From: Teretinema zuelzerae
Lineage (GTDB): Bacteria > Spirochaetota > Spirochaetia > Treponematales > Treponemataceae
Reading direction: 5' to 3'
Assembly (NCBI RefSeq): GCF_021021555.1
Contig: NZ_JAINWA010000003.1
Location: forward strand, 1,426,001-1,490,000
Length of the DNA: 64,000 nucleotides
The notes under the pieces were generated by a model that was not told where the DNA came from, made no database searches, and saw only the letters and a list, made by a program, of their open reading frames with translations. Position 1 is the stretch's first letter. Every line of letters begins with the position of its first letter. The translations under genes were made by a program, and so were the position numbers. This document shows positions 1 to 62,921 of the stretch, piece after piece.

Positions 1-786
1 TACGGCCATCAGAGGAAGAACCGCGAGCACCGTGCCGACCATCAGGCCTCCTCTGTCACCGTCCATTTGAAGAGACAGCTTGGTCAATGCGACCGGTATT
101 GTCGTCTTGTCGATGGTGGGCAGCATGATGAGCGCGCCCATGAAGTTGTTCCAGCTTCCGATGAAGGTGATGAGGCCGAGCACCGCGACGCCTGATTGGG
201 CCAGCGGAAACGCGATGCGCATCAAGATTACGAACTCGGTCAATCCGTCGATGCGCGCGGCGTCCAGCAGTTCGTTCGGAACAGAATCCTGCATGTACTG
301 CGTCATCATGAAGATTCCGAAGGCGTTCGCCATGCCCGGGATGATAAGCGCAAGCCAGGTGCCGTACCACTTTATCGAAACCATTATTTTAAAGAAGGGA
401 ATAATATTCAGGAACGAAGGAATAGCCATCGTGCTCATGATGAAAAGGAAGATCGCTTTCTTTCCCTTGAACTCGTATTTGGAAAGGGCGAAGCCTCCCA
501 TCGTACAGAAAAACACGACGGTCAGCGTGGCGAGCGAAGCGATGCCGACGCTGTTCATGAAATTAACGCCGAAGGGAATGTCCCGGAACAAGCGGCCGAG
601 ATTCACCATGAATGACGACTTAAAAAGTATATGCGGCGGATATCGGTACGTTTCCGTTCCGGGAACCGTCGCCAATACGAACATATAATAGAAAGGAAAC
701 GCGAAAAGCAGCGCGAAAAAAGACAACGCTCCGTAAAGGAATATCTTGGAAGCGGAAAAACCCTTATTCATCCTTGCAAAGGACAT
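1..786 (-). CDS. Carbohydrate ABC transporter permease, MalG type (3' end beyond window)
   Basis: Inner-membrane permease of a sugar ABC importer of the binding-protein-dependent family. The 262 codons visible include a first hydrophobic segment at residues 14-40, further membrane segments, and the cytoplasmic EAA-type loop (ELLDAARIDG, residues 172-181) that contacts the ATPase. The ATG at 786 follows GAGGTG at good spacing; an in-frame GTG two codons earlier is an alternative. It lies 68 bases downstream of the solute-binding protein gene, with a stem-loop between them. A MalF-type partner normally sits between these two genes and is absent here, so it must lie beyond the left edge or elsewhere. 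Family call is firm; the sugar is inferred only from the GH16 context. Confidence 0.85.
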   Translation of the reverse strand, partial: MSFARMNKGFSASKIFLYGALSFFALLFAFPFYYMFVLATVPGTETYRYPPHILFKSSFMVNLGRLFRDIPFGVNFMNSVGIASLATLTVVFFCTMGGFALSKYEFKGKKAIFLFIMSTMAIPSFLNIIPFFKIMVSIKWYGTWLALIIPGMANAFGIFMMTQYMQDSVPNELLDAARIDGLTEFVILMRIAFPLAQSGVAVLGLITFIGSWNNFMGALIMLPTIDKTTIPVALTKLSLQMDGDRGGLMVGTVLAVLPLMAV

Positions 787-823
787 ACTCACACCTCGAA
801 CGAAAGATTAAAGAAGAGGGAAA

Positions 824-843
824 GGAACCGGTCTCCCGGTTCC
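824..843 (-). other. Intercistronic stem-loop between binding protein and permease
   Basis: An 8-bp perfect stem (GGAACCGG / CCGGTTCC) with a 4-base loop sits between the binding-protein stop and the permease start. It lacks a U-run, so it is more likely an mRNA-stabilising or partial attenuation element that keeps binding-protein mRNA in excess of permease mRNA than a full terminator. Confidence 0.55.
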
Positions 844-854
844 CTTCAAAAAAG

Positions 855-2156
855 TCAGTCGATAAGAACGCTGATCTCGTTCAACGCGGTTGTATACGCC
901 TCGTCCGCGGATTTTCCGTTCACCAGAACGTCGGTTACCGCGTTGCCGAAAATGGCGAGAGCGGTAGCGTCGTATTCGGTTACGATGGCGGAAGGAATAT
1001 TCCTCGCGACGTCGGCGTAGATCTGGCGCACCTTCTGTCCGCCGAAGTAGGGAACCGGCTCGTTCATGACCGGATCGCTGAATACGGTCGTCAGAGCGGG
1101 AAAGGCGTCGATCGTCTTGAAGGTAAGAAGCTGCGCGCTCGGAGAGGTGGTCAGATACTTGAGCACTTCCCAGGCCGCTGCTTTCTGCTCCGCGGGGACG
1201 AATTCGGGAATGGCGAGATAGGTGCCGCCCTGGGAGGCGTACTGCTTTCCAGGGAGGTAGGTCACGCGCCAGTCTCCGGAGAGATCGGGGGCGACCCAGG
1301 TCTTGAGGCTTCCGCCCCACCAGGCGCCGTTCACGATCGCGCAGACGGTTCCGTCGGAGAAGGACTGGGTCCACGGTCCGCTCCAGCCGCCGAGATCGCC
1401 GTCGATTCCCGCGTTGCGGATGTCCTTGACGATCTTCAGCGCGGAGGTGAACTTTTCTTTCGGCTGAAGGGGCTGACCCTTCGCGTCGAACCAGCCGCCC
1501 TTTCCGCCGTTCAACGGCATCATGGCGACTTCGTTCGCATGAGGGATGGCGAACTGGTCGGGCTTGCCGTCTTTATTGCGGTCTTTAACCAGCTTCTTGC
1601 TCACCTGGATGAATTCGTTCCAATCCTTCAAGCCTTCGTAGGAAACGCCGGCGGCGTCGAGAAGGCTCTTTCGATAGAAGAGCACCGCGGGGGCGATATC
1701 GACGGGCATGGCGACAAGCTTGCCGTCCTTGGTAGTCGCGTTCGACATCGCGAAGGACACAAGATCTTTTCCCGCCGCGAGGCCGTTGAACGGAGCCGCC
1801 GCGAGATCCGAGAGTCCGCCGCCTTCCACGAATTTCGCTACGTAGCCGATTTCGAGCGACTCGATGTCGTTAGTCGCTTCGCCGGCCGCGAGAACGGTCG
1901 TCAGACGATTATGGTGGCCGCTGAAGTCGGAAGTCTGGAAGACGATCTTGATGTTCGGATATTTCTTTTTGAAATCCTCCGAATCGAAAACCGCTTTGTA
2001 CGCGGTTTCAAGGTCGCCGAAGGCTCCGATGCGGATTGTATACTGTTTAGATGAATCGTAGGGCGCCACTTTCGCGGCAGTCTCGGTGCCTCCGGCGGCG
2101 AAGGCCGCGGAGCCGATGCCCGCAAGGGCGGCTAACAGAATCAGCGCTTTTTTCAT
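855..2156 (-). CDS. Extracellular solute-binding protein, family 1 (sugar ABC importer)
   Basis: Predicted periplasmic sugar-binding protein of 433 residues that delivers ligand to the permease encoded next. It has a signal peptide (residues 1-20, ending AAFA) followed by AGG rather than a lipobox Cys. The body has the layout of family-1 binding proteins: an N-terminal beta-alpha domain with YTIRIGAFGD, a middle region with WNEFIQVSKKLV, and a C-terminal stretch with WEVLKYLTTSPSAQ typical of MalE-like proteins. GGAG seven bases before the ATG at 2156 supports the start. A 131-base gap separates it from the upstream lipoprotein gene. The substrate is not readable from sequence; beta-glucan oligosaccharides are the inference from the GH16 enzyme across the divergent promoter. 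Confidence 0.88.
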   Translation of the reverse strand: MKKALILLAALAGIGSAAFAAGGTETAAKVAPYDSSKQYTIRIGAFGDLETAYKAVFDSEDFKKKYPNIKIVFQTSDFSGHHNRLTTVLAAGEATNDIESLEIGYVAKFVEGGGLSDLAAAPFNGLAAGKDLVSFAMSNATTKDGKLVAMPVDIAPAVLFYRKSLLDAAGVSYEGLKDWNEFIQVSKKLVKDRNKDGKPDQFAIPHANEVAMMPLNGGKGGWFDAKGQPLQPKEKFTSALKIVKDIRNAGIDGDLGGWSGPWTQSFSDGTVCAIVNGAWWGGSLKTWVAPDLSGDWRVTYLPGKQYASQGGTYLAIPEFVPAEQKAAAWEVLKYLTTSPSAQLLTFKTIDAFPALTTVFSDPVMNEPVPYFGGQKVRQIYADVARNIPSAIVTEYDATALAIFGNAVTDVLVNGKSADEAYTTALNEISVLID

Positions 2157-2287
2157 GCAATGCTCCTCTAAATATCAGACGGACCGAATCCGTCCCTCTT
2201 TCAGCTTTCAGGACAAAATACAGGGCGCGATCCGGAAACAACCGTCCCCGAACCACGCCCCGGAAAGCTCTTGCTCAGCTTACAAAA

Positions 2288-2998
2288 TTACTCGCCGAAT
2301 GCCACGGAGATAAGAACATCGGTCAGAGCGGGATAGTTGGCGGCAGCAGCTTCGCGTTCAGCAGCAGTACCATCGACAACGTTCGGATTCCAGAGACCCA
2401 AGCCACTGAAAGCGCTTGTATCGATATTAGTGAAGTCGGCGAGGTTAATCGTATAGACAGTCCATCCGCCGGCTCCGGCCTTTGCCGGGTAGTCCAGGAT
2501 GTTCACTTCCGCAGCAGGAGCATTATCTCCGGTTCCAGTCCATTCAATCTTCAATCCGAAATAAGCGGTCTCGCCGAGATCGCCCTTGATCGCGACATAC
2601 GCCTTGGAGGCCGCGCTGATATCGCAGGTTGACCCGACCATTTTAAAGAACACTCCATTCCATCCGCCCCCGTCAGTTGTAAAGTTGACGCCTGTTCCGG
2701 TGGGGAAGAAACCGCCTTCTTGAATCTGAGTGTGAGTGTGCGGAATGTTCATTTTCAGACTCATAGCGCCTGAAGATGTACCGATTACCTCGTCGCCTGC
2801 ATTGACTACTTTCACGCTATCAGTTGTGAAGTCAGGACTGAAGGCTCCGGACCAGTTAATCTCATACAGCGCCGTACCGGAGAACTGATCGTCGCCCTCA
2901 TCTTCATCTCCGGAAGTGTCGCAAGCAGCGAATGAAAACACCAAAGAAAGAGCCAGGGCCATCTTCAGTACAGAAAGAATTGATTTTCTCTTCATCAT
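2288..2998 (-). CDS. Predicted carbohydrate-binding surface lipoprotein
   Basis: A 236-residue lipoprotein with a basic N-terminus, a hydrophobic segment and a lipobox SFAAC (Cys26), followed by an acidic linker. The rest is rich in Trp, Gly and Thr beta-strand stretches (for example GGGWNGVFFKM and YFGLKIEW) and looks like a jelly-roll carbohydrate-binding fold of the galactose-binding-like type; I do not recognise an exact family. GGAG stands upstream of the ATG-ATG pair at 2998/2995. It is the first gene of the leftward operon, directly behind the operator-covered promoter. A surface glycan-binding role is inference from fold and neighbours. Confidence 0.6.
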   Translation of the reverse strand: MMKRKSILSVLKMALALSLVFSFAACDTSGDEDEGDDQFSGTALYEINWSGAFSPDFTTDSVKVVNAGDEVIGTSSGAMSLKMNIPHTHTQIQEGGFFPTGTGVNFTTDGGGWNGVFFKMVGSTCDISAASKAYVAIKGDLGETAYFGLKIEWTGTGDNAPAAEVNILDYPAKAGAGGWTVYTINLADFTNIDTSAFSGLGLWNPNVVDGTAAEREAAAANYPALTDVLISVAFGE

Positions 2999-3032
2999 AA
3001 TAAACTCCTCACTTTTAGCCGTATCGGCCTAA

Positions 3033-3046
3033 TGTATACGCAATCA
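3033..3046 (-). promoter_or_regulatory. Operator-like palindrome 1 (overlaps -10 of leftward promoter)
   Basis: Read leftward this is TGATTGCGTATACA, sharing TG and CGTATACA with the site at 3053-3066 and with the site at 3369-3382. The CG centre lies 20 bases (two helical turns) from that of its neighbour, and the site overlaps the end of the leftward -10 box. CG-centred 14-mers bounded by TG and CA are the usual form of LacI-family operators. Confidence 0.55.
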
Positions 3047-3071
3047 TAGACCTGCAATCGTATACAGTCAA
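3043..3071 (-). promoter_or_regulatory. Promoter of the leftward lipoprotein/ABC operon
   Basis: Read leftward: -35 TTGACT (3066-3071), a 17-base spacer, then -10 TATGAT (3043-3048), each matching the sigma-70 consensus at five of six. It lies 45 bases before the ATG at 2998. One operator-like site fills the spacer and a second overlaps the -10, which implies repression by steric block. Confidence 0.75.
3053..3066 (+). promoter_or_regulatory. Operator-like palindrome 2 (inside spacer of leftward promoter)
   Basis: TGCAATCGTATACA, differing at one position from the site at 3369-3382 over the start point of the rightward promoter. It fits the LacI-family pattern of a CG-centred 14-mer bounded by TG and CA. 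Confidence 0.65.
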
Positions 3072-3316
3072 GTTTAAAAAACAAAAATTATTTTAAACTT
3101 TCAATTCAATCCTTTAGCAGCAATTATGACGAATTGCAATTTCCATCAAATTAGAGCACGCATTATATTGAGAGAAATAAATGATAGCGCAAACAAACGC
3201 ATTATTATTAATAAAAACGCTTGAATGTAAAATATAGCGACAAACAAGAAATCACTATCAATGTTCAATACTATCATCACGGAGATATAAAATCGCTTTT
3301 TACATTCAATGCGATT

Positions 3317-3330
3317 TAAATACGTATACT
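3317..3330 (+). promoter_or_regulatory. Weak operator-like site upstream of rightward -35
   Basis: TAAATACGTATACT keeps the CGTATAC core but not the outer TG and CA. It ends four bases before the rightward -35, with its centre 52 bases (about five helical turns) from the strong site at 3369-3382. It may be an auxiliary site or chance in AT-rich DNA. The rest of the AT-rich gap (3072-3316) shows nothing else I can support. Confidence 0.35.
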
Positions 3331-3333
3331 TTA

Positions 3334-3362
3334 TTGACATCCTATAAAACCCATGAGATTAT
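3334..3362 (+). promoter_or_regulatory. Promoter of the rightward CBM lipoprotein/barrel/GH16 genes
   Basis: Perfect -35 TTGACA (3334-3339), a 17-base spacer, and a weaker -10 GATTAT (3357-3362). Transcription would start near 3369, exactly where the strong operator-like 14-mer begins, giving a 5' leader of about 40 bases before the ATG at 3409. Confidence 0.65.
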
Positions 3363-3368
3363 ATTCTT

Positions 3369-3382
3369 TGCAAACGTATACA
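3369..3382 (+). promoter_or_regulatory. Operator-like palindrome at start point of rightward promoter
   Basis: TGCAAACGTATACA, 13 of 14 identical to the site at 3053-3066 on the other arm of the divergent region. It sits immediately downstream of the -10 box, a classic repressor position. Confidence 0.65.
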
Positions 3383-3408
3383 CGCAGTGTTTCAATAGGA
3401 GGAATATA

Positions 3409-4035
3409 ATGAAGAAACTGCAGAAGATGATGGTCGCCGCCATAGGCGCCGCGGCGGTACTGATAGCATCCGGATGCGCAAGCGCTCCGAAAGCAGCTGA
3501 AATGGTGTGGTCGGATAATATTCTCGTAAACGGCGATTTCGAGGCGGGCCAGGGAAACTGGACACCCTGGATCGACTCGGGATGGGGCGGAGCCGGAGAG
3601 GTAACCTGGGACAACGGAATCGCTACGCTCCGAATCGACGAAATGGGTGAGCAGCCCTGGGCCGTGGCCATGCACTATAAAAAAGTCACCTTCGAGAAAG
3701 GCGCCCGCTATGTTGCTCGCTTCAAAATGAAATCCGACATGGAACGCGTCGTGCGCTTCAGCATCGGAAACGGACTGGCCCCAGCGGACCCGCCCTACCT
3801 TGAGTACCAGGACATCGTGGTAGGAACCGATTGGCAGACCTACGAGTTCGAGTTCGTCATGAAATTCCGCACCAACAAGTTCGGCCGACTCGATTTCAAC
3901 TGCGCGTACAATCCCGGAATGTTCCTTCCCGAAGGACACGTATGGAAAGACGAAGCCAAGCTCAAAGCCACCGGAGCCGCGACCGTCTACATCGACGACG
4001 TAGAAGTCCGCAAGCTCGCGGCCGCTGCGGAATAA
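3409..4035 (+). CDS. CBM4/9-like carbohydrate-binding lipoprotein
   Basis: A 208-residue lipoprotein. Residues 1-22 form a signal peptide with lipobox IASGC (Cys23). The mature part reads as one carbohydrate-binding module of the CBM4/9 type: it opens with NGDFEAGQGNWTPW, has aromatic-rich strands through the middle (VRFSIGNGLAP, WQTYEFEF), and closes with the usual YIDDVEV strand. The same module, including NGDF at the start and YIDDV at the end, forms the N-terminal half of the GH16 enzyme two genes on. A strong AGGAGG precedes the ATG at 3409. First gene of the rightward operon; likely a surface glycan-binding protein handing substrate to the neighbouring barrel. Confidence 0.75.
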   Translation: MKKLQKMMVAAIGAAAVLIASGCASAPKAAEMVWSDNILVNGDFEAGQGNWTPWIDSGWGGAGEVTWDNGIATLRIDEMGEQPWAVAMHYKKVTFEKGARYVARFKMKSDMERVVRFSIGNGLAPADPPYLEYQDIVVGTDWQTYEFEFVMKFRTNKFGRLDFNCAYNPGMFLPEGHVWKDEAKLKATGAATVYIDDVEVRKLAAAAE

Positions 4036-4049
4036 TGAGGAGAGATCCG

Positions 4050-5489
4050 ATGAAAAAATATCTTACCTTTTTTACATTGGCGATTCTCGCGGGAAGCATG
4101 GCCTTCGCAGCGGAAACACTCTTCGATGAAAACCTGCCGACGCAGACAAAGAAAATATCCACGTCTATCGACTTCAAACCGAAGCTCGGCGTTGAATGGG
4201 GGTACGACTTCGATCGCAACCAATCAGGATTCAAGGAAATCGTTAACCTCGACCTTGAATGGGAAATCCTCCCCTACCAGGATTATACGAGCGATACAAG
4301 CGGCATCGAGTACGGCGATCCCTACGGGCTGGTGATGTTCTCCGGCGGACATCTCACGCTGAAAATTCAAGATGAAAGCGGAGATATGTCGGCCACCGCA
4401 GGATCCGCCAATAAAGTTCTTAATCCGGTATTCGCAATAAACTACGAAAAAATCTGGGGGAAAATCGTCTGGGATCCCTTCTACGTTCTTGTTGCAGCGA
4501 ATGAAAAGAATTTTTATACGAGACACACCGGATGGTCATTCGCTACCGCAAATTCGCGTCCAAGAGCGAACTGGGCGCATATCGGCTATCGCGTTCAAGG
4601 CTGGACATCGGACTTCAATGTCAGCGCGTGGGAGATTGCCGGATCAGGAGACATGGTTAATACAGCGGGAGGAGAGGCAGGACTCGGGTTGGGATTCGTC
4701 GGAAACACGACAGAAGCGCTTTTCATGGTTGCATCGCCTCTGAGCTGGGAATACATCAATGCCGCAAGTCCGGGCAACGTAGACAACAAGTACGACTTCG
4801 GCCTTTCGGCGGAATCAAATCCCGTTGGAGACCTGATGGTCAGAGGATCGGCGGTAACCGGAATCAACTACGACGTACTGCCGCTCGGTTTGAGCGGAGC
4901 CCTCGGGTACCGGTTCGACATCACCAATACGCTGGCGGTAATGCCGCATACCGCGATGGATGTCGCGTTCACGGGCACCGAAGACAAGCCGCTTGATTCA
5001 TGGACCACTGAAAATTCCTTCGGTTTCGACGTGATCTGGCCGGGATCGAACGGATGGGGAGACAATCCCCTTCTTGATATGGAAACCAACATTTTCGCCG
5101 GATTCACCCTGGACGGATCGATCGTCATGTCCAAAGGAGCCGATCCCTCAATAAACATGGTTGCATCCATGCACGAAGACAATTCAGGCGGACTCATTCA
5201 GAATCTCGGAACGACATTCATTTTCGAACTTGCAGATATCACCGGCGATAAACCGGTGAACACATTCGGCTTCTATGCCGACTACAACATCTGGAACCAG
5301 TTCAAACCTTACGGACGATTCCTAAAGACAAAGGATTCCAGCGTCAAGAAGAACATCACCGGAGAACTCGGCCTTGAAATGACGATGATCCCCAACACGG
5401 TGATTACCTTCATGTACAAGACCGAGGATCTGACCGCGATTTCCGAGAACAAGGGAATCCTGACGACATCCTTCATCGTAACGTTCTGA
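4050..5489 (+). CDS. Predicted outer-membrane beta-barrel protein
   Basis: A 479-residue protein with a signal peptide (residues 1-20, ending MAFA) and a body of alternating amphipathic strands rich in Trp, Tyr, Gly and Asn. It ends FIVTF; a C-terminal Phe is the usual signal for outer-membrane insertion. I do not recognise a named porin family. GAGGAG precedes the ATG at 4050, which lies 14 bases after the previous stop. Between a glycan-binding lipoprotein and a beta-glucanase, it may be the oligosaccharide channel of this locus, in a role like SusC but without TonB-dependent features (no plug domain visible and much too short). The transport role is inference. Confidence 0.6.
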   Translation: MKKYLTFFTLAILAGSMAFAAETLFDENLPTQTKKISTSIDFKPKLGVEWGYDFDRNQSGFKEIVNLDLEWEILPYQDYTSDTSGIEYGDPYGLVMFSGGHLTLKIQDESGDMSATAGSANKVLNPVFAINYEKIWGKIVWDPFYVLVAANEKNFYTRHTGWSFATANSRPRANWAHIGYRVQGWTSDFNVSAWEIAGSGDMVNTAGGEAGLGLGFVGNTTEALFMVASPLSWEYINAASPGNVDNKYDFGLSAESNPVGDLMVRGSAVTGINYDVLPLGLSGALGYRFDITNTLAVMPHTAMDVAFTGTEDKPLDSWTTENSFGFDVIWPGSNGWGDNPLLDMETNIFAGFTLDGSIVMSKGADPSINMVASMHEDNSGGLIQNLGTTFIFELADITGDKPVNTFGFYADYNIWNQFKPYGRFLKTKDSSVKKNITGELGLEMTMIPNTVITFMYKTEDLTAISENKGILTTSFIVTF

Positions 5490-5522
5490 TGCTGTAATCA
5501 GCGCAACACGGTTTAATTACAT

Positions 5523-5555
5523 GGGCTGCCGCTTCCCGAGGGCAGCCCTTTTTTT
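5523..5555 (+). terminator. Intrinsic terminator between barrel gene and GH16 gene
   Basis: GGGCTGCC (5523-5530) pairs perfectly with GGCAGCCC (5541-5548) across a 10-base loop, followed by seven Ts. It lies inside the apparent operon, so it either attenuates GH16 expression or gives the GH16 gene a separate, unseen promoter. Confidence 0.75.
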
Positions 5556-5619
5556 ACCCAGCGTTTTCTGCCGGCCTAAGAGACAGCCGCGGAAAACACG
5601 CACGCAACGGAGTAAACAC

Positions 5620-7113
5620 GTGAAACGAAAATCTATTTTATTTACCTGTCTGACGGCCGCGTCAGTTTTTTTTGCGTTGATGCCGATCGCCGGATGCGAT
5701 TTCGGGTCGAATACAACGGACACGGAAACCCCCGATCCGGACGACCCCGCAGATCCCGATCCCGAAGAACCAGTTGAAACAGAGCGGATTGAGAACGGAG
5801 ACTTCGCAGACGGTTTCGTCTTGCCGTGGTCCGCGTGGAACGGAGAGGGCGGTGCTTCGACGCAGACGGTAACCGGAGGAGAACTCGTGGTAACCGTGAC
5901 GGCGCCGGGCACTCAACCCTATTCCGTACAGATTTTCCAGGACGGCCTCTCGATTCCCGACGGCGAACAGACGGTTAGCTTCAGGGCGAAGGCGGCTGAA
6001 CCGAGGATGTTGAGAGTCCAGATCGGGAAGGGCTTGTCTGCCGATCCCTGGTTCGTCGAATTTATGCCCGTCAAATCATTCGATTTGACGATTGAATGGC
6101 AAGACTTCAGTTTCACCTTCAACAAAAGCAACTCAACCTATTCCGACGGGAAACTCGTATTCGAGCTGGGAACCATGACCGGCGAAGGAACCCTCGCGAC
6201 GGACATTTACATCGACGACGTAAGTCTCGTCAATCTCGACTCGGGAACGCCCGTTGAAACTCCCGGCGAATTCGTCTATCCCGCCGTCAACGCGGACTCC
6301 TGGACGCCCGGAGACGGCTGGACGCTCTCCTGGCAGGACGAGTTCAACGACGGCGCTTTCGATACCAATACATGGACCCGCCAGACCATGCTCAATCCGC
6401 CGAACAATGAATGGCAGCAGTACTTCGGCGGCACGTCGAACGACAACGCCTGCGAAGAGGACGGATATATGGTGCTGAAAGCCTCGATGAACGGAACAGC
6501 GCACGGAGACAATCAATACAAATCCGCTCGCGTAATTTCCAATCCGGGCGGGCAGGACGGCTCGTCCTCTGCCGAGGGAAAAACATTCCTCTACGGAAAA
6601 ATCGCGGCGCGAATCCAGCTCCCCTACGGCAAGGGAATCTGGCCCGCGTTCTGGATGCTCGGCGACAATATTAACGAAACCGGGGGGGACACGACCTGGC
6701 CTGAGTGCGGAGAGATCGATATTCTGGAGACGGGCGCCAAAGACGATCCCGCTTACGGACAGGGCACGACGCACGGAACCCTCCACCACGATCCGACAGT
6801 GGAAAACATCACCAACGACTGGAACAACCTGTATCTGCCGTCCGCCAAACACACGCTTCCCGGCGGAAAGTTTTTCGCCGAAAACTTCCACGTATTCGAG
6901 ATCGAATGGGATGAATCGAAGATTGTCTGGAAGCTCGACGGCGCGAAAATCGGAGAACAATCGATCAGCGAGGCCGGCCGCTCGGAATTCCATAAACCCT
7001 TCTACGTGCTGTTCAATATCGCGGTTGGAGGAGACTTCACTTCGACCCCGGACTCGACCACCCACTTCCCGCAATACATGTACATAGACTGGATCAGGCA
7101 CTATACAAAATAA
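5620..7113 (+). CDS. GH16 beta-1,3(4)-glucanase lipoprotein with N-terminal CBM4/9-like module
   Basis: A 497-residue secreted lipoprotein. GTG start at 5620 with GGAG seven bases upstream; any longer frame would run back through the terminator. Signal peptide with lipobox IAGC (Cys26), a Pro/Asp linker (38-55), a CBM4/9-like module from NGDF (about residue 59) to YIDDV (about 197-201), then a GH16 catalytic domain (about 225-497). The catalytic motif GEIDILE supplies nucleophile Glu365, Asp367 and acid/base Glu370, spaced as in laminarinases. GIWPAFWML upstream and the YIDWIRHY ending also fit that subgroup. It would cut beta-1,3- or mixed-linkage glucans at the cell surface. The enzyme family is firm; exact linkage preference is not. 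Confidence 0.92.
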   Translation: MKRKSILFTCLTAASVFFALMPIAGCDFGSNTTDTETPDPDDPADPDPEEPVETERIENGDFADGFVLPWSAWNGEGGASTQTVTGGELVVTVTAPGTQPYSVQIFQDGLSIPDGEQTVSFRAKAAEPRMLRVQIGKGLSADPWFVEFMPVKSFDLTIEWQDFSFTFNKSNSTYSDGKLVFELGTMTGEGTLATDIYIDDVSLVNLDSGTPVETPGEFVYPAVNADSWTPGDGWTLSWQDEFNDGAFDTNTWTRQTMLNPPNNEWQQYFGGTSNDNACEEDGYMVLKASMNGTAHGDNQYKSARVISNPGGQDGSSSAEGKTFLYGKIAARIQLPYGKGIWPAFWMLGDNINETGGDTTWPECGEIDILETGAKDDPAYGQGTTHGTLHHDPTVENITNDWNNLYLPSAKHTLPGGKFFAENFHVFEIEWDESKIVWKLDGAKIGEQSISEAGRSEFHKPFYVLFNIAVGGDFTSTPDSTTHFPQYMYIDWIRHYTK

Positions 7114-12297: not shown

Positions 12298-12362
12298 GAC
12301 AGAAAAAAAAGACCTTACTGATGAATCAGTAAGGTCTTGGTATCTAGCAGGAGTAGGACTCG
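12298..12362 (-). repeat. Duplicated 3' end of tRNA-fMet plus terminator
   Basis: This 65-base stretch is identical, apart from one extra A in an A-run, to 12480-12543. It contains the last 18 bases of the tRNA (from the T-loop to the discriminator base) and the whole downstream terminator, whose 13-bp stem is at 12309-12321 with 12326-12338. The rest of the tRNA is missing. The 117 bases between the copies (12363-12479) contain no recognisable gene. Duplication of a tRNA 3' end is the usual trace of site-specific integration. Confidence 0.75.
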
Positions 12363-12484: not shown

Positions 12485-12519
12485 AAAAAAAGACCTTACT
12501 GATGAATCAGTAAGGTCTT
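12485..12519 (-). terminator. Terminator of the initiator tRNA gene
   Basis: Read leftward: a perfect 13-bp stem (AAGACCTTACTGA with TCAGTAAGGTCTT) and a 4-base loop followed by a U-run, starting seven bases after the tRNA 3' end. Confidence 0.85.
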
Positions 12520-12525
12520 GGTATC

Positions 12526-12598
12526 TAGCAGGAGTAGGACTCGAACCTACGACCTCCGGGTTATGAGCCCGACGAGCTGCCAACTGCTCTATCCTGCG
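12526..12598 (-). tRNA. Initiator tRNA-fMet (CAU)
   Basis: A 73-base cloverleaf. The acceptor stem CGCAGGA pairs with TCCTGCT except at the first position (C1 against U72), the unpaired 1-72 position that marks bacterial initiators. The anticodon stem has three consecutive G-C pairs (GGG/CCC) around the loop CTCATAA with anticodon CAU, the second initiator hallmark. T-arm GTAGG-TTCGAGT-CCTAC, discriminator A73; CCA is not encoded. Confidence 0.95.
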
Positions 12599-55369: not shown

Positions 55370-58177
55370 TCAATTCGGCATCCATATGTTCGGGAACTGC
55401 CCTTCCGCCGTATTTCCGGTGCAAGACGCATTGAAGGATCCGTAACTATCGGTCAAACTGCCGGCATCTTCGAAATACGCTCCGCCGCCTTCCAGTCCCG
55501 CGGTATTCTCAGTGATCGAATACGAATCCGAAGTCAGCACGGACAGCGTTCCTCCCGTCTCGACGAATACCCCGCCTCCGTACGCGGAAACGGTATTCCC
55601 GGCAATAGACGCCGCACCGGAAATCGACATTGAGTTTTGCGCGGTTACATAGACTCCGCCGCCGTTGAGGGCAGAATTATCGTCTCCTGTCGTTGAAGAG
55701 CCGATATTTCCGGACAGTAAATTAAGCGTCGACGATGAAAAACTCGCCGAATCATACTCCAGATATACCGCGCCGCCGTTCCCGTTGGGAGCTGAACAGC
55801 CTTTAATGCCGCCGCCTGACAACATCGCAGTTCCGCCTTTCACCAGCAAACCGCCCCCGTTCCCGGCAGTATTGCTGTTGTTCCGTACAAACGCGCCCGT
55901 ATTAAGCGACACTGTGCCGTTAAACATGACGGAAACCAGAGGATAGGCAGATGAAGTTTGAACTGCGGAACCGATAAATACATCCGACAGATTCAGATAT
56001 CCGTTGCCGGAAACGGTAATGAGCGAACCTGTTAAAGTCCCGTTCGGATATATCGTGCGAGGGGTCAGGGGATTTAGCGAGTTGATGGATACCGTGCGGG
56101 CAACAGTGAGCGGGCTAGAGACCGGGATGTCCTCAACCAGGTAGATCGTGTACACGTTAACGGCATTCAAGGCGTCTTCCAGCGAACAGGGGTAATCTTC
56201 GCTGGAGCCGTCGCCTATGCGGGTAGAGGCGACATAGGCTTCATACGAGGAAATCCAGCTTCCGTACAGCGCAAAGTTCTCTGTTCCGGCTGTCGCCGCG
56301 GTATTACTGGCGAAGTACGGCAAAGAAGCCGAATATCCGTACAACGAGGACCCGGCGGCCAGATACACGCCTCCGCCTTCTCCGGTTGCGGTATTGCCGG
56401 AAATCGCGTCGCCGGGATTCATCTGAAGATAGAGGTTAGCGCCGGAAGCCGCGTAGACCGCGCCGCCGTTCGCCGCGGTACAACCGGTGATAGACCCGCC
56501 ATTGACGGTCATATTTCCTCCGGACAGGTACACAGCGCCGCCGTTGCCGGACGTGTTGGTCGAATTTCGTATCAGCGAGTCCGACAAGAGCCCGAACGAA
56601 GCGCCCGATGACACGCTGACCAAGCTCGCCGTGCGGCTCAATCCAGCACCGTCGAGGATGACGTTCGTCATCATAAGCGACGGATAATTATATGTTACGG
56701 GATCCTGCGCGACAGTCAGGAAGGGAGAGGTTGTTCCGGTATACGTAATCACCGCCCTCGAGTCTTCCGCATAATTCGTCAGCATCGAAAGAATAGTGGC
56801 GTTTGCGCTGAGGGCATAGGAAGCCGAAGTCGTCACGGATTCGGTCAGGTATATCATAACCATGCCGCTGGTTTCGGTGGATAAGGCGGCTGAGGCAAGC
56901 GCGGAGTCGAGCGTACAGAGATTTGCTATATCGGATCCGCTTCCATCGCCCTTCGCGGCCGCTCCGACATAGTAATACACCGTCAAATTCGGAGCGAGAT
57001 ATTCATCGCTCAAATTGAGAACTCCGGTATCGTTAGAAGATACCAGGCGCATATATCCGAACATATATGCGCTTTCGAAGCTATAATCGCCGTAGGACGC
57101 TTTGATGACTGAATAGTCCGATACGGAGGACACATCGACGATCGAAGAGAGAGAGTCGTCCTTATCGATCAGAGCCGCGACGAAATACGGCGTGTTCTTC
57201 TGAGTCGCGTAAGGGGCGCCTGTTCCCGGAACTATCAATGAAACAGAGCCGGCTCCCATCGCGTCCAGAGTCGCTACCCCGACGGCATCAGGAACGAGGC
57301 TGGCGATATCCGGGCCGGATTGGCCGGACTGCCAGGCTAAATACGAATCGCGGGAAAGGACCTTCACGAATAAACGCTTCCCCCCGATCGAAGTTGCCGT
57401 TTCGTTCGGCATATACACGGCAGTGCCGCTTCCGCCCGCCAAACCGAAAAGCCCTTTCGTGATTCTATCGTCGTAAATCTTTACGATCGTGTCGGGGATG
57501 AACGGACGATACGAACCGCTGACCGAATCCAGATATCTCGCTTCCAACCTATAGTCCCCGCTGGCAAGACTGGTATTGTACAGGGAAACATAGGGGTTTC
57601 CGGAGGGATCTGTCATGGCCGACGGCGTAGGAATCTCTACAGCTGTTCCGGTATCGATACTGGTCAGGGTAATGGACCATTCAGTCAGCGAAGGATCGAA
57701 CGGCAGATTATAGGCAGCGATTTCAAAGGAACCGGTTCCTCCGACGGTCCGAGTCGGCGTTACGGTTACAGGCACCGTATTCACGCCGGTAGTTAAATCC
57801 AAAGTAACCGCGTACGGCCCATGCTGACGGCCCTCGTAATCCATGCAGGTCACGGAGATTATATAGGCAATATCCGGGGCAATCTCATCGAAGACAAACT
57901 CCGAAAGCGGCGTACCGTACCGGGTATAGGATTCCATAGTATTTAACGCAACCGTCAATTTCACTTCTACGGAGGAAATATCCTTGGCCAGCATTACCGG
58001 CCTGATAGACCGTCCGCTCGTCTCAGCGGAAGCGAAGTCTATTTTCACCGCTACTGTTTTTCCGTCGTTGCCGGCCTGGACGCTTTCCGTCTTCCCGTCA
58101 AGAACAGGATTGAAGCAGGAGACCAATGAAAACAGCACGGTAAGGGGAAGAAAACGCGATACATTGAGTATTCTCAT
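55370..58177 (-). CDS. Large surface lipoprotein with Pmp-like beta-helix repeats
   Basis: A 935-residue lipoprotein (lipobox SLVSC, Cys21). An N-terminal beta-sandwich region (about 40-245) is paralogous to that of the lipoprotein at 60372-62921. A ~110-residue module around SIGGKRLFVKV (nt about 57080-57430) is shared with the two neighbours upstream. The C-terminal ~550 residues form a right-handed beta-helix of the polymorphic-membrane-protein style, with repeated GGAVYLS and SGNTA turns. It lacks an autotransporter barrel, so it is likely tethered by lipid. Nine bases separate it from the preceding gene; it ends the operon before the terminator. Confidence 0.7.
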   Translation of the reverse strand: MRILNVSRFLPLTVLFSLVSCFNPVLDGKTESVQAGNDGKTVAVKIDFASAETSGRSIRPVMLAKDISSVEVKLTVALNTMESYTRYGTPLSEFVFDEIAPDIAYIISVTCMDYEGRQHGPYAVTLDLTTGVNTVPVTVTPTRTVGGTGSFEIAAYNLPFDPSLTEWSITLTSIDTGTAVEIPTPSAMTDPSGNPYVSLYNTSLASGDYRLEARYLDSVSGSYRPFIPDTIVKIYDDRITKGLFGLAGGSGTAVYMPNETATSIGGKRLFVKVLSRDSYLAWQSGQSGPDIASLVPDAVGVATLDAMGAGSVSLIVPGTGAPYATQKNTPYFVAALIDKDDSLSSIVDVSSVSDYSVIKASYGDYSFESAYMFGYMRLVSSNDTGVLNLSDEYLAPNLTVYYYVGAAAKGDGSGSDIANLCTLDSALASAALSTETSGMVMIYLTESVTTSASYALSANATILSMLTNYAEDSRAVITYTGTTSPFLTVAQDPVTYNYPSLMMTNVILDGAGLSRTASLVSVSSGASFGLLSDSLIRNSTNTSGNGGAVYLSGGNMTVNGGSITGCTAANGGAVYAASGANLYLQMNPGDAISGNTATGEGGGVYLAAGSSLYGYSASLPYFASNTAATAGTENFALYGSWISSYEAYVASTRIGDGSSEDYPCSLEDALNAVNVYTIYLVEDIPVSSPLTVARTVSINSLNPLTPRTIYPNGTLTGSLITVSGNGYLNLSDVFIGSAVQTSSAYPLVSVMFNGTVSLNTGAFVRNNSNTAGNGGGLLVKGGTAMLSGGGIKGCSAPNGNGGAVYLEYDSASFSSSTLNLLSGNIGSSTTGDDNSALNGGGVYVTAQNSMSISGAASIAGNTVSAYGGGVFVETGGTLSVLTSDSYSITENTAGLEGGGAYFEDAGSLTDSYGSFNASCTGNTAEGQFPNIWMPN

Positions 58178-58186
58178 ACGAGTCTC

Positions 58187-60289
58187 CTAATTCGTCAGAG
58201 TAAAGGGAATATACGCCGAGAACCACTCTGTCCCGTCGTATGCTTCCAATGTCAGGTAATTCGCCGATCCGGCGTTGATCCAGCCTGGATACGCGGAAGG
58301 AACGATAGAACAGACATTCGTCGTCTGAGCTTCCAACAGATTACCGTTCAATTTCCACACATACGAGGCATATCCCGCAGGCGCCGTTGCCGCGAGGGTT
58401 TCCGACTGGGCCAACGTCGCCGAGGAAGGACTCAGAACAGGATCTCCCGCTTCATCGAAGGTTATCGAGAGAGCCACATCAACGGAAGGCACAAACAGAG
58501 TCAACATCTCAGGAGATAACCAAACCCGGCCATTCTCGTCGGCCGTCACAGTCAGCATCGATTCCTTGAAAAACTCATAATCTCCCTCATCGGGATCCAA
58601 TTTAGTCGTATCCGAGAAAAGAACTGAAATATCGGTTATCGAGGAAAAATCGTCATCCATATCGAGGAAACCGCCGATTGCGTACTGTACGTTCGGCGCG
58701 AGAAGCAGGGGCGTAAACAAATTGTCGGCAAACGAATAGAGCATTGCGGAGCCGTTTCCGTTCGCGTCGAGGTCCATGAAGCCGGCATGAGACATTGTAC
58801 CTTCCATAGGTTCCGAATACGGTAAAAGCCAGAAAACCAGCCGGCCTCCGGCTAATGATGCGTTTCCCTTGAACGTAACTGACGAGCTCAGCATAAAGTC
58901 GGAAAGGCCGACGGGGATGACGCCGGATGAATCGGGCGTTTTCAGTATCATGCCGTTCATTTCGCTATCGGTAACCCAATCTCCGATCATCGGTTCAAAC
59001 GATGAATAATCGCCGTTCAACGCTATGAAATCCTGCAGAGTCATAGAATCGAAACGGCCGGCCATGTCGACCATAGCAGAAAGATAGTAGCTTTTGGCAG
59101 GGTCTATTACAGCTGGCGAACCGGTAAGCGCGTCGAACAGGGGGATGGATGCGGTGCCGTCCAAGGCTACCGCTGCGAAACCGATCGACAGCGTATCGGT
59201 CGGCAACTGTCCCGTGTAATCTTCCGGGAGAGACGCGAGCCACGTTTCGAAGACGGATTGTTCAATGGCGGAAACATAGACCTTCTTTCCAACCCAGTCA
59301 GGGCTGCCGGAAACCAGCATCGAACCGGATGCCGGAACATCGGTCGAAGTCAAATCGATTGTGATGCGCATATCGCCTGAATACTCGACATATAGATAGA
59401 AGGGTGAGCCGTCGGCGCTAATGCCGAATTTATCGATGCGGGAGGCGGTAACGCTTTCCAGCGCGGAAGAAGAGGTGTTTATCGAACCCAGCATCTTTCC
59501 GTCGAAACCGTAAACAGCTGTAAACCCGACCGAGCACGACGCTCCGACTACTTCGGGATTCGGCGCAAAGGTAATTTCCGCCTGGGCAGTCTCCGGCTTG
59601 ACGGAATACAAGCCCTCCAGGCGGTAAAACTCTCTGGCGAGCGAAGGCGCGGAGGCGGTAATAGATGAAGCATCGGGATAAAAGATTGAACGGTCTTCGG
59701 ATATGACGGGGATCAGCGTTTGGGCGAGTTTCGTGGTTTCTCCGGCAATCAGAGAAAACGAGCCGGCGGCGCCGAAGGATACTCTGCCAGCGAACAAGTC
59801 GGAAAGACCGTCCATTATCAGTTGAATTTCTTCAGATATATCGGGCTCCGTTTCCTTATCCGCAGAAGCCGCGAGAATAGCTCCCATGATTTCATCGCTT
59901 GAGAATACATCCTTTGCGGTGATTGTTTCTCCGGCGTATGTAAAGGATTTCGTCAAATCCAGCGCCGAGGAAGCATGCAAAAGAATTGCGCCTTTGTAGG
60001 CGCCGGCAGGAAGTTCCTGGGTAGTAAATTCTTTCCCGAAAGCTACTTTATATGGACCGTAAAACCTGGCGACCGATTCAGCAGGACCTCCTAAGGTTTT
60101 TATGTAGAGGAAGCCGTCTCCCCGGGCTATGGCACGGTCGTTTGCCGCCGGGGCGGGACCGAGACGGACGGAGACAACCGGAAGATTGGACTTCCAGGAG
60201 GGCTCCAGGCCGAACTGGCACGAAATAAAGAACAACGGGACAACACAAAGGAATAAAGCCGCATGGGCATATTTAGTAACGTTCCTCAT
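58187..60289 (-). CDS. Surface lipoprotein with two copies of the GKK-type module and Ig-like end
   Basis: A 700-residue lipoprotein (lipobox FFISC, Cys24). ATG 60289 has GAGGT upstream; a GTG three codons earlier is less likely. The centre holds two tandem copies of the shared ~100-residue module: one opening near WVGKKVYVSAIEQ (nt about 59000-59330) and one near SLAGGRLVFWLLP (nt about 58560-58890), each with a DGxxS-type strand, a YxxxAxxDxD pair and an SDY/GDY ending. The last ~70 residues form an Ig-like domain (SYVWKLNGNLLEAQTT) paralogous to the end of the lipoprotein at 62957-64000. No enzymatic domain seen. Confidence 0.65.
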   Translation of the reverse strand: MRNVTKYAHAALFLCVVPLFFISCQFGLEPSWKSNLPVVSVRLGPAPAANDRAIARGDGFLYIKTLGGPAESVARFYGPYKVAFGKEFTTQELPAGAYKGAILLHASSALDLTKSFTYAGETITAKDVFSSDEIMGAILAASADKETEPDISEEIQLIMDGLSDLFAGRVSFGAAGSFSLIAGETTKLAQTLIPVISEDRSIFYPDASSITASAPSLAREFYRLEGLYSVKPETAQAEITFAPNPEVVGASCSVGFTAVYGFDGKMLGSINTSSSALESVTASRIDKFGISADGSPFYLYVEYSGDMRITIDLTSTDVPASGSMLVSGSPDWVGKKVYVSAIEQSVFETWLASLPEDYTGQLPTDTLSIGFAAVALDGTASIPLFDALTGSPAVIDPAKSYYLSAMVDMAGRFDSMTLQDFIALNGDYSSFEPMIGDWVTDSEMNGMILKTPDSSGVIPVGLSDFMLSSSVTFKGNASLAGGRLVFWLLPYSEPMEGTMSHAGFMDLDANGNGSAMLYSFADNLFTPLLLAPNVQYAIGGFLDMDDDFSSITDISVLFSDTTKLDPDEGDYEFFKESMLTVTADENGRVWLSPEMLTLFVPSVDVALSITFDEAGDPVLSPSSATLAQSETLAATAPAGYASYVWKLNGNLLEAQTTNVCSIVPSAYPGWINAGSANYLTLEAYDGTEWFSAYIPFTLTN

Positions 60290-60371
60290 GGTACACACCT
60301 CGCTACCGTAAGTATACTTCAGATTTTACTCTGTAACAGAGGAGAAAAGGGAATACCATGTAAAAACGTAT

Positions 60372-62921
60372 CTATATCGGCAGCCACTGAGCGTACAGGG
60401 GCTTGTCCGTCAAAACATTGACGGTGTCGAATATCCAGGTTTCCGTATATTGAAAGTCGTCGTACCAACCGTCGAAGACATATCCGGGATTCGATACGAC
60501 GACCGGAGCGACGGCAAACCCGTTCATCGGAACCAGCTGGCAGAGATCCGGCTGATATACCATATCGATATAGAAAGAAACAATGTTGCCCCAAGAAACA
60601 GTACTGTACTGACCCGCGATATCGGAAATATTGTTCGCGAAATACCGTAAAACGGGAGTTCTGTCCTCGGTCACGACTCCGTTGATCGATACTGAGGGAA
60701 GCGTCTGCGCGTCGTACAGGCCGCCGGCCGTCTGATATGCGTAATTTTCGTTTACGCAGAAATCGCTGAGGTCCGACTGGAAATCTACCGGCGAAAGGGA
60801 GTATATCGCTCCGCCGAGAGTAGCCCGATTGCCCAAAATCTGAGTATTCGGCCCTGAAAGCGACAGAGACGACGAAGCGTCTACATACACGCCACCCCCG
60901 TTTCCCAGGGTTTCGCAACTCGATATCGACGAATCCACGATTTTGACGCGGCCGCCGCCCACAATGCGGATGGCAAGCCCGTCGACGATATTCGAACCGG
61001 AAAGCAAAGATTGGATCGAGGAATTATTCCGCAACGAACAGGACGCCCCGTTTTCGACCAGTAAATACGGATAGGCCATATCGATCTGGTCCGACCACAT
61101 CGATATGGATGAAAGGGTTAAATCCGCTCCTGCGCCGCTCACCCTGATGGTCGAATCCGCGAAGCCCGTGCTGGACCGACGCAGTTCGGTAGCATATGTC
61201 GACCAGAGCGCAACCCGGCCGTTGACGATCAAGGGCGCGGAAAGAGACAACATAGTCATTCCGATGCTGATAAAGGACGGAGTTTCTACGGAAGCGGCGA
61301 TCGCGTCGGCGAGATACGCTTCTTCATAGATATTATAGACGCGGGCGACCTTCGGAAAAGCAAAGGCGGCGGTGTTCGTCGCGTCGCAAAGCGTTTCCAG
61401 CAGAGCCAGGGCGTTAACCGTTGCGACGGCGCCGGGGTCGAGAGCGACGGCCCCTCCCGCCGATGAAGAGCTGTTTCCGGAAAACGAAATCGACGGGAGT
61501 TCGGAAAGCTCAAGAATTGCGCCCGAACTCAGCCATATTCCGCCCCCGGAAGACGATGAACAGTTCCTGACGGAACCCGATTCAAGATAGACCAGGCCCG
61601 CATTCGCGGAAACTCCGCCTCCATAGGATTCAATAGAAGAACAGTTTGTAATATCTCCGCCGAGCATTTTTACAACCGCGGAAGAGTCCATAACATTAAT
61701 TCCGCCCACATTTCCCTGGTTGCCGGTGATTACGGATCCGGGACGAAGTTCGAGAACGCCGTAATTTATTGAAACGAGGCCGTTCATTGCTGAATAGACA
61801 ACCCCGCCGGACTCTGCGGCAACCTCCACATTCTCCAAGGCGACGGTTATCGGAGAGATTTGATTCCCCACGACAAAAAGAGATGTCTCCATATTCATTC
61901 CCAGGGAGATTTTCTCCGTGCCGGTCAGGCCGGACACGACCATCGGAGACATCAGGTATACCGTATTGCCGAGAACAATGGAATCAAGAAGAATAATGCG
62001 GGCAGGGCGGGCCTGAGTCGCGAGAGGATTGTCGCGCGCGTAGGTAACCGCGGTCTCGAATAAAACGGGAGCGTTCGGCAATACCCCGGAAGAAGCTTCC
62101 CCGCCGTTGGACGACACATAGTAGCGCACGGCGGATGAATACAGCTGTTCTGTATTATACGAGATCGGCGCACCCGAGACAGTGCCGGAAACGCACCCGT
62201 CGTAAATCTCCACGAGAGCGTCGTCGCCGAGGGCGATCCGGCTGCCCAAGCCCGCGACGTACGCTGAAACGGACAGAAGGTAGGTGCCGGACGGGATATT
62301 TCCCCAATTTAAGCTGAACGATCCCGATATCGAGTCCCAGGTCCACGGCTCGGAGCCCTGAACCCACGGATAGGGCTCAAGACCGCCGGAAACAACGCGA
62401 TATAAATCGGGAGAAACAGAGGAGAGCCCGCCGGGATCGGAAAACGTTATATCAAGGATCAGAGATCCGGTTTGTCCGGCCGTTCTGATTCTGTTCACGG
62501 AAACCGACAGATTATTCGTTCCGGGGAGCGGAGTTAAAGAAGCGTATCCCGAGGCAGTCGCCAAGGTTCCGGAATACAGGACGACCGAGAAGGTGTACGG
62601 AACCATCGGTTCAAGATCGGCGAACTCCATAACCGAGCCCGGGATCGCTTCCTGCACTGAGACTACAGCGCCGAGGGAGTCGCGGACAGTCGCTTCGAGC
62701 GTGGTCCACGAGACTGCCGAAAGCGCCGGAGGCCTCAAAACACGGACGGCAGACGACGGAGATTCTCCGCCCGATGCCGAATCCGCCAGCGCGATTTTAA
62801 CGACAGCCCTGCCGGCTGCGGGAACGACTGCCGATTCGAGATAGGCGCCGAAGCAGGACGAGAAAACCAGCGCGGCGGCAGCCAATGCGGATATGAATAA
62901 CGCGTTCATCGTTTTTTTCAT
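60372..62921 (-). CDS. Surface lipoprotein with beta-helix and C-terminal InlB-like repeat
   Basis: An 849-residue lipoprotein (lipobox FSSC, Cys23). The N-terminal ~240 residues are paralogous to the beginning of the lipoprotein at 55370-58177 (both with the RTxGxTGSxxxxI strand and an EIYDG/KIYDD turn). The middle is a beta-helix with GGGVSANAG- and SGNSSSS-type turns. The C-terminus carries an InlB B-repeat-like segment (GYVFDGWYDD to LYAQWLPI). GAGGAG precedes the ATG at 62921; the gene lies 35 bases after the previous stop and 82 bases before the next start. Confidence 0.7.
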   Translation of the reverse strand: MKKTMNALFISALAAAALVFSSCFGAYLESAVVPAAGRAVVKIALADSASGGESPSSAVRVLRPPALSAVSWTTLEATVRDSLGAVVSVQEAIPGSVMEFADLEPMVPYTFSVVLYSGTLATASGYASLTPLPGTNNLSVSVNRIRTAGQTGSLILDITFSDPGGLSSVSPDLYRVVSGGLEPYPWVQGSEPWTWDSISGSFSLNWGNIPSGTYLLSVSAYVAGLGSRIALGDDALVEIYDGCVSGTVSGAPISYNTEQLYSSAVRYYVSSNGGEASSGVLPNAPVLFETAVTYARDNPLATQARPARIILLDSIVLGNTVYLMSPMVVSGLTGTEKISLGMNMETSLFVVGNQISPITVALENVEVAAESGGVVYSAMNGLVSINYGVLELRPGSVITGNQGNVGGINVMDSSAVVKMLGGDITNCSSIESYGGGVSANAGLVYLESGSVRNCSSSSGGGIWLSSGAILELSELPSISFSGNSSSSAGGAVALDPGAVATVNALALLETLCDATNTAAFAFPKVARVYNIYEEAYLADAIAASVETPSFISIGMTMLSLSAPLIVNGRVALWSTYATELRRSSTGFADSTIRVSGAGADLTLSSISMWSDQIDMAYPYLLVENGASCSLRNNSSIQSLLSGSNIVDGLAIRIVGGGRVKIVDSSISSCETLGNGGGVYVDASSSLSLSGPNTQILGNRATLGGAIYSLSPVDFQSDLSDFCVNENYAYQTAGGLYDAQTLPSVSINGVVTEDRTPVLRYFANNISDIAGQYSTVSWGNIVSFYIDMVYQPDLCQLVPMNGFAVAPVVVSNPGYVFDGWYDDFQYTETWIFDTVNVLTDKPLYAQWLPI

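Follow-up and report, generated by a model that had tools for sequence, protein, structure and literature searches.

A predicted beta-1,3-glucan utilisation locus with a remote Msp/Tpr-type barrel in a spirochaete

Introduction

By which route do large sugars cross the outer membrane of polysaccharide-eating spirochaetes without SusCD? No answer is described in the literature searched. The window analysed here, a stretch of 64,000 nucleotides (C3:1426001-1490000) from a spirochaete genome of 3.62 Mb, opens on a gene cluster that bears on this question. We read this cluster, with reasonable confidence, as a complete beta-1,3-glucan utilisation locus; its barrel belongs to a branch of the Msp/Tpr superfamily that would be matched to substrate in several glycan loci, with a partner lipoprotein that is swapped according to the glycan.

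Gene content and extent of the locus

The first-pass annotation placed a glycan-uptake locus at 1-7113. The genes it named are present, but the extent is too short, as the window edge hides half of the locus. The full gene order is GH16a, LacI, GH16b, GH17, GH3, MalF, MalG, the binding protein and the lipoprotein at 2288-2998, followed divergently by the CBM4_9 lipoprotein, the barrel and GH16c (Table 1). The first six of these genes, identified by Pfam, lie upstream of window base 1 in L001 (C3:1412001-1432000), which extends the reading by 14 kb. GH16a and GH16b are lipoproteins; the GH17 protein is a lipoprotein with an Ig-like domain. With two GH16 genes, LacI, GH17, GH3 and a second permease upstream, the cluster can be taken as a complete laminarin-type beta-1,3-glucan locus. 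It begins about 8.8 kb before the window and ends at window position 7113. Past GH16c lie FabF and a nitronate-monooxygenase-like gene, both ordinary.

Table 1. Features of the locus, in window positions unless L001 is given
Feature	Position	Strand	Evidence
MalF, GH3, GH17, GH16b, LacI and GH16a, beyond MalG	L001:13937-5172		Pfam
MalG-type ABC sugar permease, truncated by the edge of the window (its end is some 60 bases further upstream, at L001:13941)	1-792	-	Pfam BPD_transp_1, 4.6e-16
ABC sugar-binding protein, MalE type	855-2156	-	SBP_bac_1, 1.2e-22
Lipoprotein of unknown family, first gene of the importer operon	2288-2998	-	Lipobox FAAC
Two CGTATAC operator-like sites (3034-3040, 3059-3065) around the importer-operon promoter	3034-3065	-	
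Two CGTATAC operator-like sites (3323-3329, 3375-3381) either side of the TTGACA promoter of the CBM-lipoprotein-barrel operon	3323-3381	+	
Lipoprotein consisting of a single CBM4_9 module	3409-4035	+	Pfam, E 1.8e-14
Outer-membrane barrel protein, 479 aa, with signal peptide and C-terminal ...FIVTF	4050-5489	+	hhalign chain to Msp, tree, context
Terminator-like hairpin and T run between the barrel and GH16 genes	5523-5556	+	
GH16c lipoprotein, predicted endo-beta-1,3-glucanase, motif EIDILE	5620-7113	+	Pfam CBM4_9 5.2e-10, GH16 1.6e-15
GH16c modules: CBM4_9	~5788-6171		
GH16c modules: GH16	~6553-7095		

The GTG at 5620 is preferred as the start of GH16c. An ATG at 5521 is less likely because it precedes the hairpin and T run between the two genes; the hairpin itself is modest (z -1.9).

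Three other features were seen in the same stretches of DNA. Between GH17 and GH3 there are four near-identical, G+C-rich 125-base tandem repeats (L001:10491-10994, some 3 kb before the window). Further along the window, an exact 59-base duplication (12304-12362 and 12485-12543, 181 bases apart) takes in the 3' end of a tRNA-Met gene on the minus strand (12526-12598) together with the hairpin that follows; this may mark an integration site. At 55370-62921 there are three consecutive large lipoprotein-like genes (935, 703 and 849 aa), which possibly encode surface proteins. Repeated 'GGGVY...GNTA' motifs of the parallel beta-helix kind are present in two of them, and two match no Pfam family.

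Importer and lipoproteins

An inner-membrane ABC importer had been proposed and is borne out: the locus encodes a binding protein and two permeases, MalF lying upstream, which together make an importer of the MalEFG type. PDB relatives of the binding protein are sugar ABC binding proteins, including Lin1841 (5ysb) and a cellobiose-binding protein (8bfy). The locus contains no ATPase gene. A MalK homologue with 54% identity to E. coli MalK is encoded at C3:452373, and the importer is probably powered by a shared MalK-type ATPase of this kind.

Two CBM-type lipoproteins were annotated in the first pass. This is correct for the one at 3409-4035, which has a 75% identical counterpart in the same place in G002, a genome of the same genus (public record QKDA01000128, Spirochaetales MAG SZUA-438); judging from its module, it is likely a surface beta-glucan-binding protein. 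It is not supported for the lipoprotein at 2288-2998, which has no relative in Pfam, NCBIfam or PDB and no homologue by tblastn in nine relative neighbourhoods (L012-L020). A single-sequence AlphaFold model of this protein is unreliable (pLDDT 43).

GH16c is a lipid-anchored enzyme, as had been stated, and it does share a CBM4/9 module with the stand-alone lipoprotein: Pfam finds the module in both, and the two copies are homologous (28% identity, E 4e-13). The further proposal that these modules evolved as a set is not supported, because in G002 the CBM lipoprotein, the barrel and the ABC genes are kept, while the 20 kb covered there yielded no GH16.

Enzymes and substrate

A set of GH16, GH17 and GH3 beta-1,3-glucanases beside a transporter is what distinguishes a laminarin utilisation locus, and such a set is found here. 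All three GH16 proteins contain the ExDxxE motif, which is of the laminarinase type in this family. The nearest solved relatives of GH16b and GH16c are Thermotoga laminarinases (4dfs/3azx for GH16c, E 7e-40), and the GH16c CBM is related to the CBM of laminarinase 16A (1gui, 1.6e-12). For the GH17 protein, the nearest solved relative is FbGH17A (6fcg, E 5e-31), which was solved as a laminarinase of marine Formosa; the combination of GH16, GH17 and GH3 marks the laminarin PULs of Formosa (PMC6246565). Beta-1,3-glucan or laminarin is likely the substrate on the strength of these similarities.

Laminarin and mixed-linkage glucan had both been suggested at the outset. Many laminarinase-type GH16 enzymes cut mixed-linkage glucan too, and the best NCBIfam match of GH16 is an endo-1,3-1,4-beta-glycanase, though far under the cut-off. 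A mixed-linkage (beta-1,3/1,4) glucan in place of pure beta-1,3-glucan is nevertheless improbable: the nearest solved relative of the GH17 protein is a laminarinase requiring consecutive beta-1,3 bonds, the ExDxxE motif is common to the three GH16 proteins, and the syntenic locus of G002 adds a GH64 beta-1,3-glucanase. Laminarin as the likely substrate is upheld by three GH16 genes, GH17 and GH3 here and by GH64 in G002; for mixed-linkage glucan, which is possible, the locus contains nothing specific.

At 62% identity, the GH16a domain and the catalytic domain of GH16c are probably products of a duplication. The genome contains eight GH16 genes, five of them outside the locus; the locus therefore need not be the sole beta-glucan locus of the genome.

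Barrel family

The barrel matches no Pfam family, MOSP included. Against the NCBIfam Msp model NF033926 it scores 19.6 bits (cut-off 200; E 3.5e-4) over its N-terminal part, which leaves it outside the Msp family proper. A profile of the barrel family finds no match in PDB, and an AlphaFold model from a two-sequence alignment has a pLDDT of 29.6. No weight is placed on a simple score of beta-strand alternation, because it separated the known porins OmpF and LamB poorly from soluble proteins.

The family can be assigned through an intermediate group. Profiles were aligned with hhalign for nine relatives of the barrel (A1), for intermediate barrels (A5), most of which adjoin Rnf or unrelated housekeeping genes, and for bona fide Msp proteins (A4). 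A1 aligns with A5 over the whole length (99.4%, E 8e-22), as does A5 with A4 (98.9%, E 2e-17); A1 and A4 align directly over the C-terminal half (96.0%). All controls (OmpF/OmpC/PhoE, LamB, reversed and shuffled) remain below 3%. Sequence homology to porins of the LamB and OmpF types is accordingly not seen (0.1% and 1.3%, respectively). By profile comparison, then, the barrel is a remote, diverged member of the Msp/Tpr porin superfamily, in place of the unrecognised family of the first-pass annotation. The C-terminal domain of Tpr forms trimeric porins while its N-terminal domain is periplasmic (PMC8407342). Given this homology and the gene context, the barrel is likely a porin for glucan oligosaccharides.

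The barrel is present as a single copy in its genome, and none was found on plasmids. One 1.1 Mb genome in the family of the source genome is rich in Tpr-like genes, and on that account the family is taken to be that of Treponema.

Related loci in other spirochaetes

Relatives were collected by barrel sequence alone; gene context played no part. A relative is found in 20 of 195 genomes of the family, most of which lack it, and in 16 of 393 genomes across the phylum. The first-pass annotation had called for a synteny search for barrel-GH16 pairs, and neighbourhoods that join barrel and glycanase genes do occur in other spirochaete genomes; the host being itself a spirochaete, the description as a spirochaete system is apt.

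The neighbourhoods differ in the glycan enzymes they contain. The beta-1,3-glucan type is found in the source genome and in G002 only, where GH17, GH3, MalF, MalG, the binding protein, the CBM lipoprotein, the barrel and LacI are all kept. Mannan-type loci contain GH5-CBM27, GH26, GH130 and a mannan-type binding lipoprotein. GH65-type loci contain GH65 pairs together with a GH99/WbsX-like enzyme and extend to a genome of another family (G239, 2,472,645 bp). Two of the tandem-barrel loci adjoin GH74, recognised by sequence as Pfam gives BNR repeats, and one of these also has GH5 and GH31; these are of the xyloglucan type.

L015, L016, L050, L051 and L101 share a conserved spirochaete locus in which two genes of the GH65 phosphorylase type accompany a GH99/WbsX-like enzyme. 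Most of these also have a beta-phosphoglucomutase-like gene; the glycan is not obvious.

MalF and MalG lie within 10 kb of the barrel in 13 of 14 untruncated core loci, and also in the G239 locus. With 17-19 MalF genes per genome, such proximity is expected by chance in about 10-13% of cases; the binomial chance of 13/14 is about 4e-11, for loci that fall into three clades and are not independent. No ABC importer adjoins the tandem or xyloglucan-type relatives or the Msp-like relatives, so linkage between barrel and importer is not universal in the superfamily. In most core loci the gene immediately preceding the barrel encodes a lipoprotein; from one locus type to another, the families of these lipoproteins are unrelated or hardly related.

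In a maximum-likelihood tree of 38 barrels, each locus type forms one clade (support for the mannan clade, 83/84; the glucan clade has two members, and the tandem label is architectural since only two tandem members have GH74). The tree requires four label changes, which is the minimum, compared with a mean of 21.1 for shuffled labels; none of 200 shuffles is as low. In genomes with barrels of several types (two in G014, three in G002), barrels group by type and not by genome. The Msp branches are long, so the position of Msp and the root region are unsure.

These data also bear on a rival reading in which the barrel, an Msp-type porin for general use, would lie in the locus by chance and have no substrate preference, and oligosaccharides would enter by any porin. 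Msp is a pore-forming adhesin for which no sugar preference is known (PMC8407342), and members of the superfamily also adjoin Rnf genes, where there is no sugar context. We regard a general porin as an unlikely explanation, as the barrel is a patchily distributed, single-copy gene in an operon with a substrate-type lipoprotein, and its tree sorts by locus type.

Regulation

The promoter of the importer operon (lipoprotein-SBP-MalG-MalF) is TTGACT/TATGAT at 3071-3043. CGTATAC sites adjoin both divergent promoters and are also found in the upstream regions of GH16a/LacI and GH16b. Six of the eight sites in the locus are intergenic, compared with 12% intergenic sequence (P 7e-5), and the syntenic intergenic region of G002 contains the motif as well. 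Genome-wide there are 534 sites and 175 for the reversed control, about a threefold excess that may reflect an operator used widely in this genome. Since the motif is so common, it may serve several LacI paralogues, and its assignment to the local LacI is provisional.

Proposed mechanism

Laminarin-type beta-1,3-glucan would be bound at the cell surface by the CBM4_9 lipoprotein and the CBM-GH16 lipoprotein, and cleaved to oligosaccharides by the GH16 enzymes. The oligosaccharides would cross the outer membrane through the barrel by facilitated diffusion, without TonB. Trimming, at the cell surface or in the periplasm, could fall to the lipoprotein GH17 and GH3 enzymes; import would then proceed through the binding protein and MalF/MalG, probably with the shared ATPase. 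The local LacI presumably represses the divergent promoters through CGTATAC until sugar is present.

The CBM lipoprotein might instead act as a lid in a tight complex with the barrel, giving an independently evolved, SusCD-like gated importer. The lipoprotein gene that immediately precedes the barrel in most core loci, of a family unrelated from one glycan type to the next, agrees with this, but such a complex seems doubtful: the locus has no TonB-dependent receptor or SusD, there is no sign of energy coupling, and the CBM lipoprotein and the barrel of G002 are separated by a second lipoprotein.

Facilitated diffusion through a substrate-matched barrel is the preferred reading. A broader reading can be put forward tentatively. 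Spirochaetes may have evolved a modular gate for glycan capture from the Msp/Tpr superfamily, in which a substrate-specific barrel and an interchangeable lipoprotein that binds the glycan act as a unit, independently of TonB. This gate would be used in loci for beta-1,3-glucan, mannan and xyloglucan and in GH65-type loci, and would mostly feed ABC importers. If this is true, the Msp/Tpr porins of pathogenic treponemes are relatives of nutrient-specific channels.

A barrel tree sorted by neighbouring glycan enzymes provides a concrete candidate for the outer-membrane step and predictions of substrate that can be tested. The Msp/Tpr porins, familiar chiefly from oral and syphilis treponemes, also become part of a larger group in which the remaining members resemble nutrient channels; the substrate preference of Msp/Tpr pores thus becomes a direct question. 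In the literature searched, which excluded most subscription papers, no description was found of PUL, porin and laminarin combinations in spirochaetes. The parts are of known kinds; that search gave no account of spirochaetal glycan loci whose outer-membrane stage is an Msp-superfamily barrel with swapped glycan-binding lipoproteins.

Comparison with known systems

The locus was initially likened to Sus systems, with the remark that SusC/D is missing. The remark is accurate: SusD_RagB is absent from the whole genome, neither SusC nor SusD is in the locus, and the sole TonB-dependent receptor of the genome is 0.87 Mb away. The model is less suitable than MalEFG plus LamB, the nearest working analogue, which has the same divergent layout. 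As in E. coli malEFG / malK-lamB, the binding protein and two permeases are transcribed one way and the porin the other, and uptake here, too, would be ABC-driven without TonB. In contrast to the E. coli maltose regulon, the spirochaete locus has no ATPase gene, includes a CBM lipoprotein and lipid-anchored glycanases, and has LacI in place of MalT; LamB is not homologous to the barrel.

The locus shares with the laminarin PUL of Bacteroidota (Formosa) the GH16/GH17/GH3 set, a GH17 homologous to FbGH17A and a glycan-binding lipoprotein; it differs in having an ABC importer and an Msp-type barrel and no TonB-dependent receptor or SusC/SusD pair. Thermotoga laminarinase Lam16A contains related GH16 and CBM4 modules, while GH16c is lipid-anchored and has another locus setting. 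The treponemal Msp/Tpr (MOSP) porins are homologous along the barrel via the intermediate group. Unlike them, this barrel falls under the NF033926 cut-off, has no MOSP match in Pfam and is located in a glycan locus.
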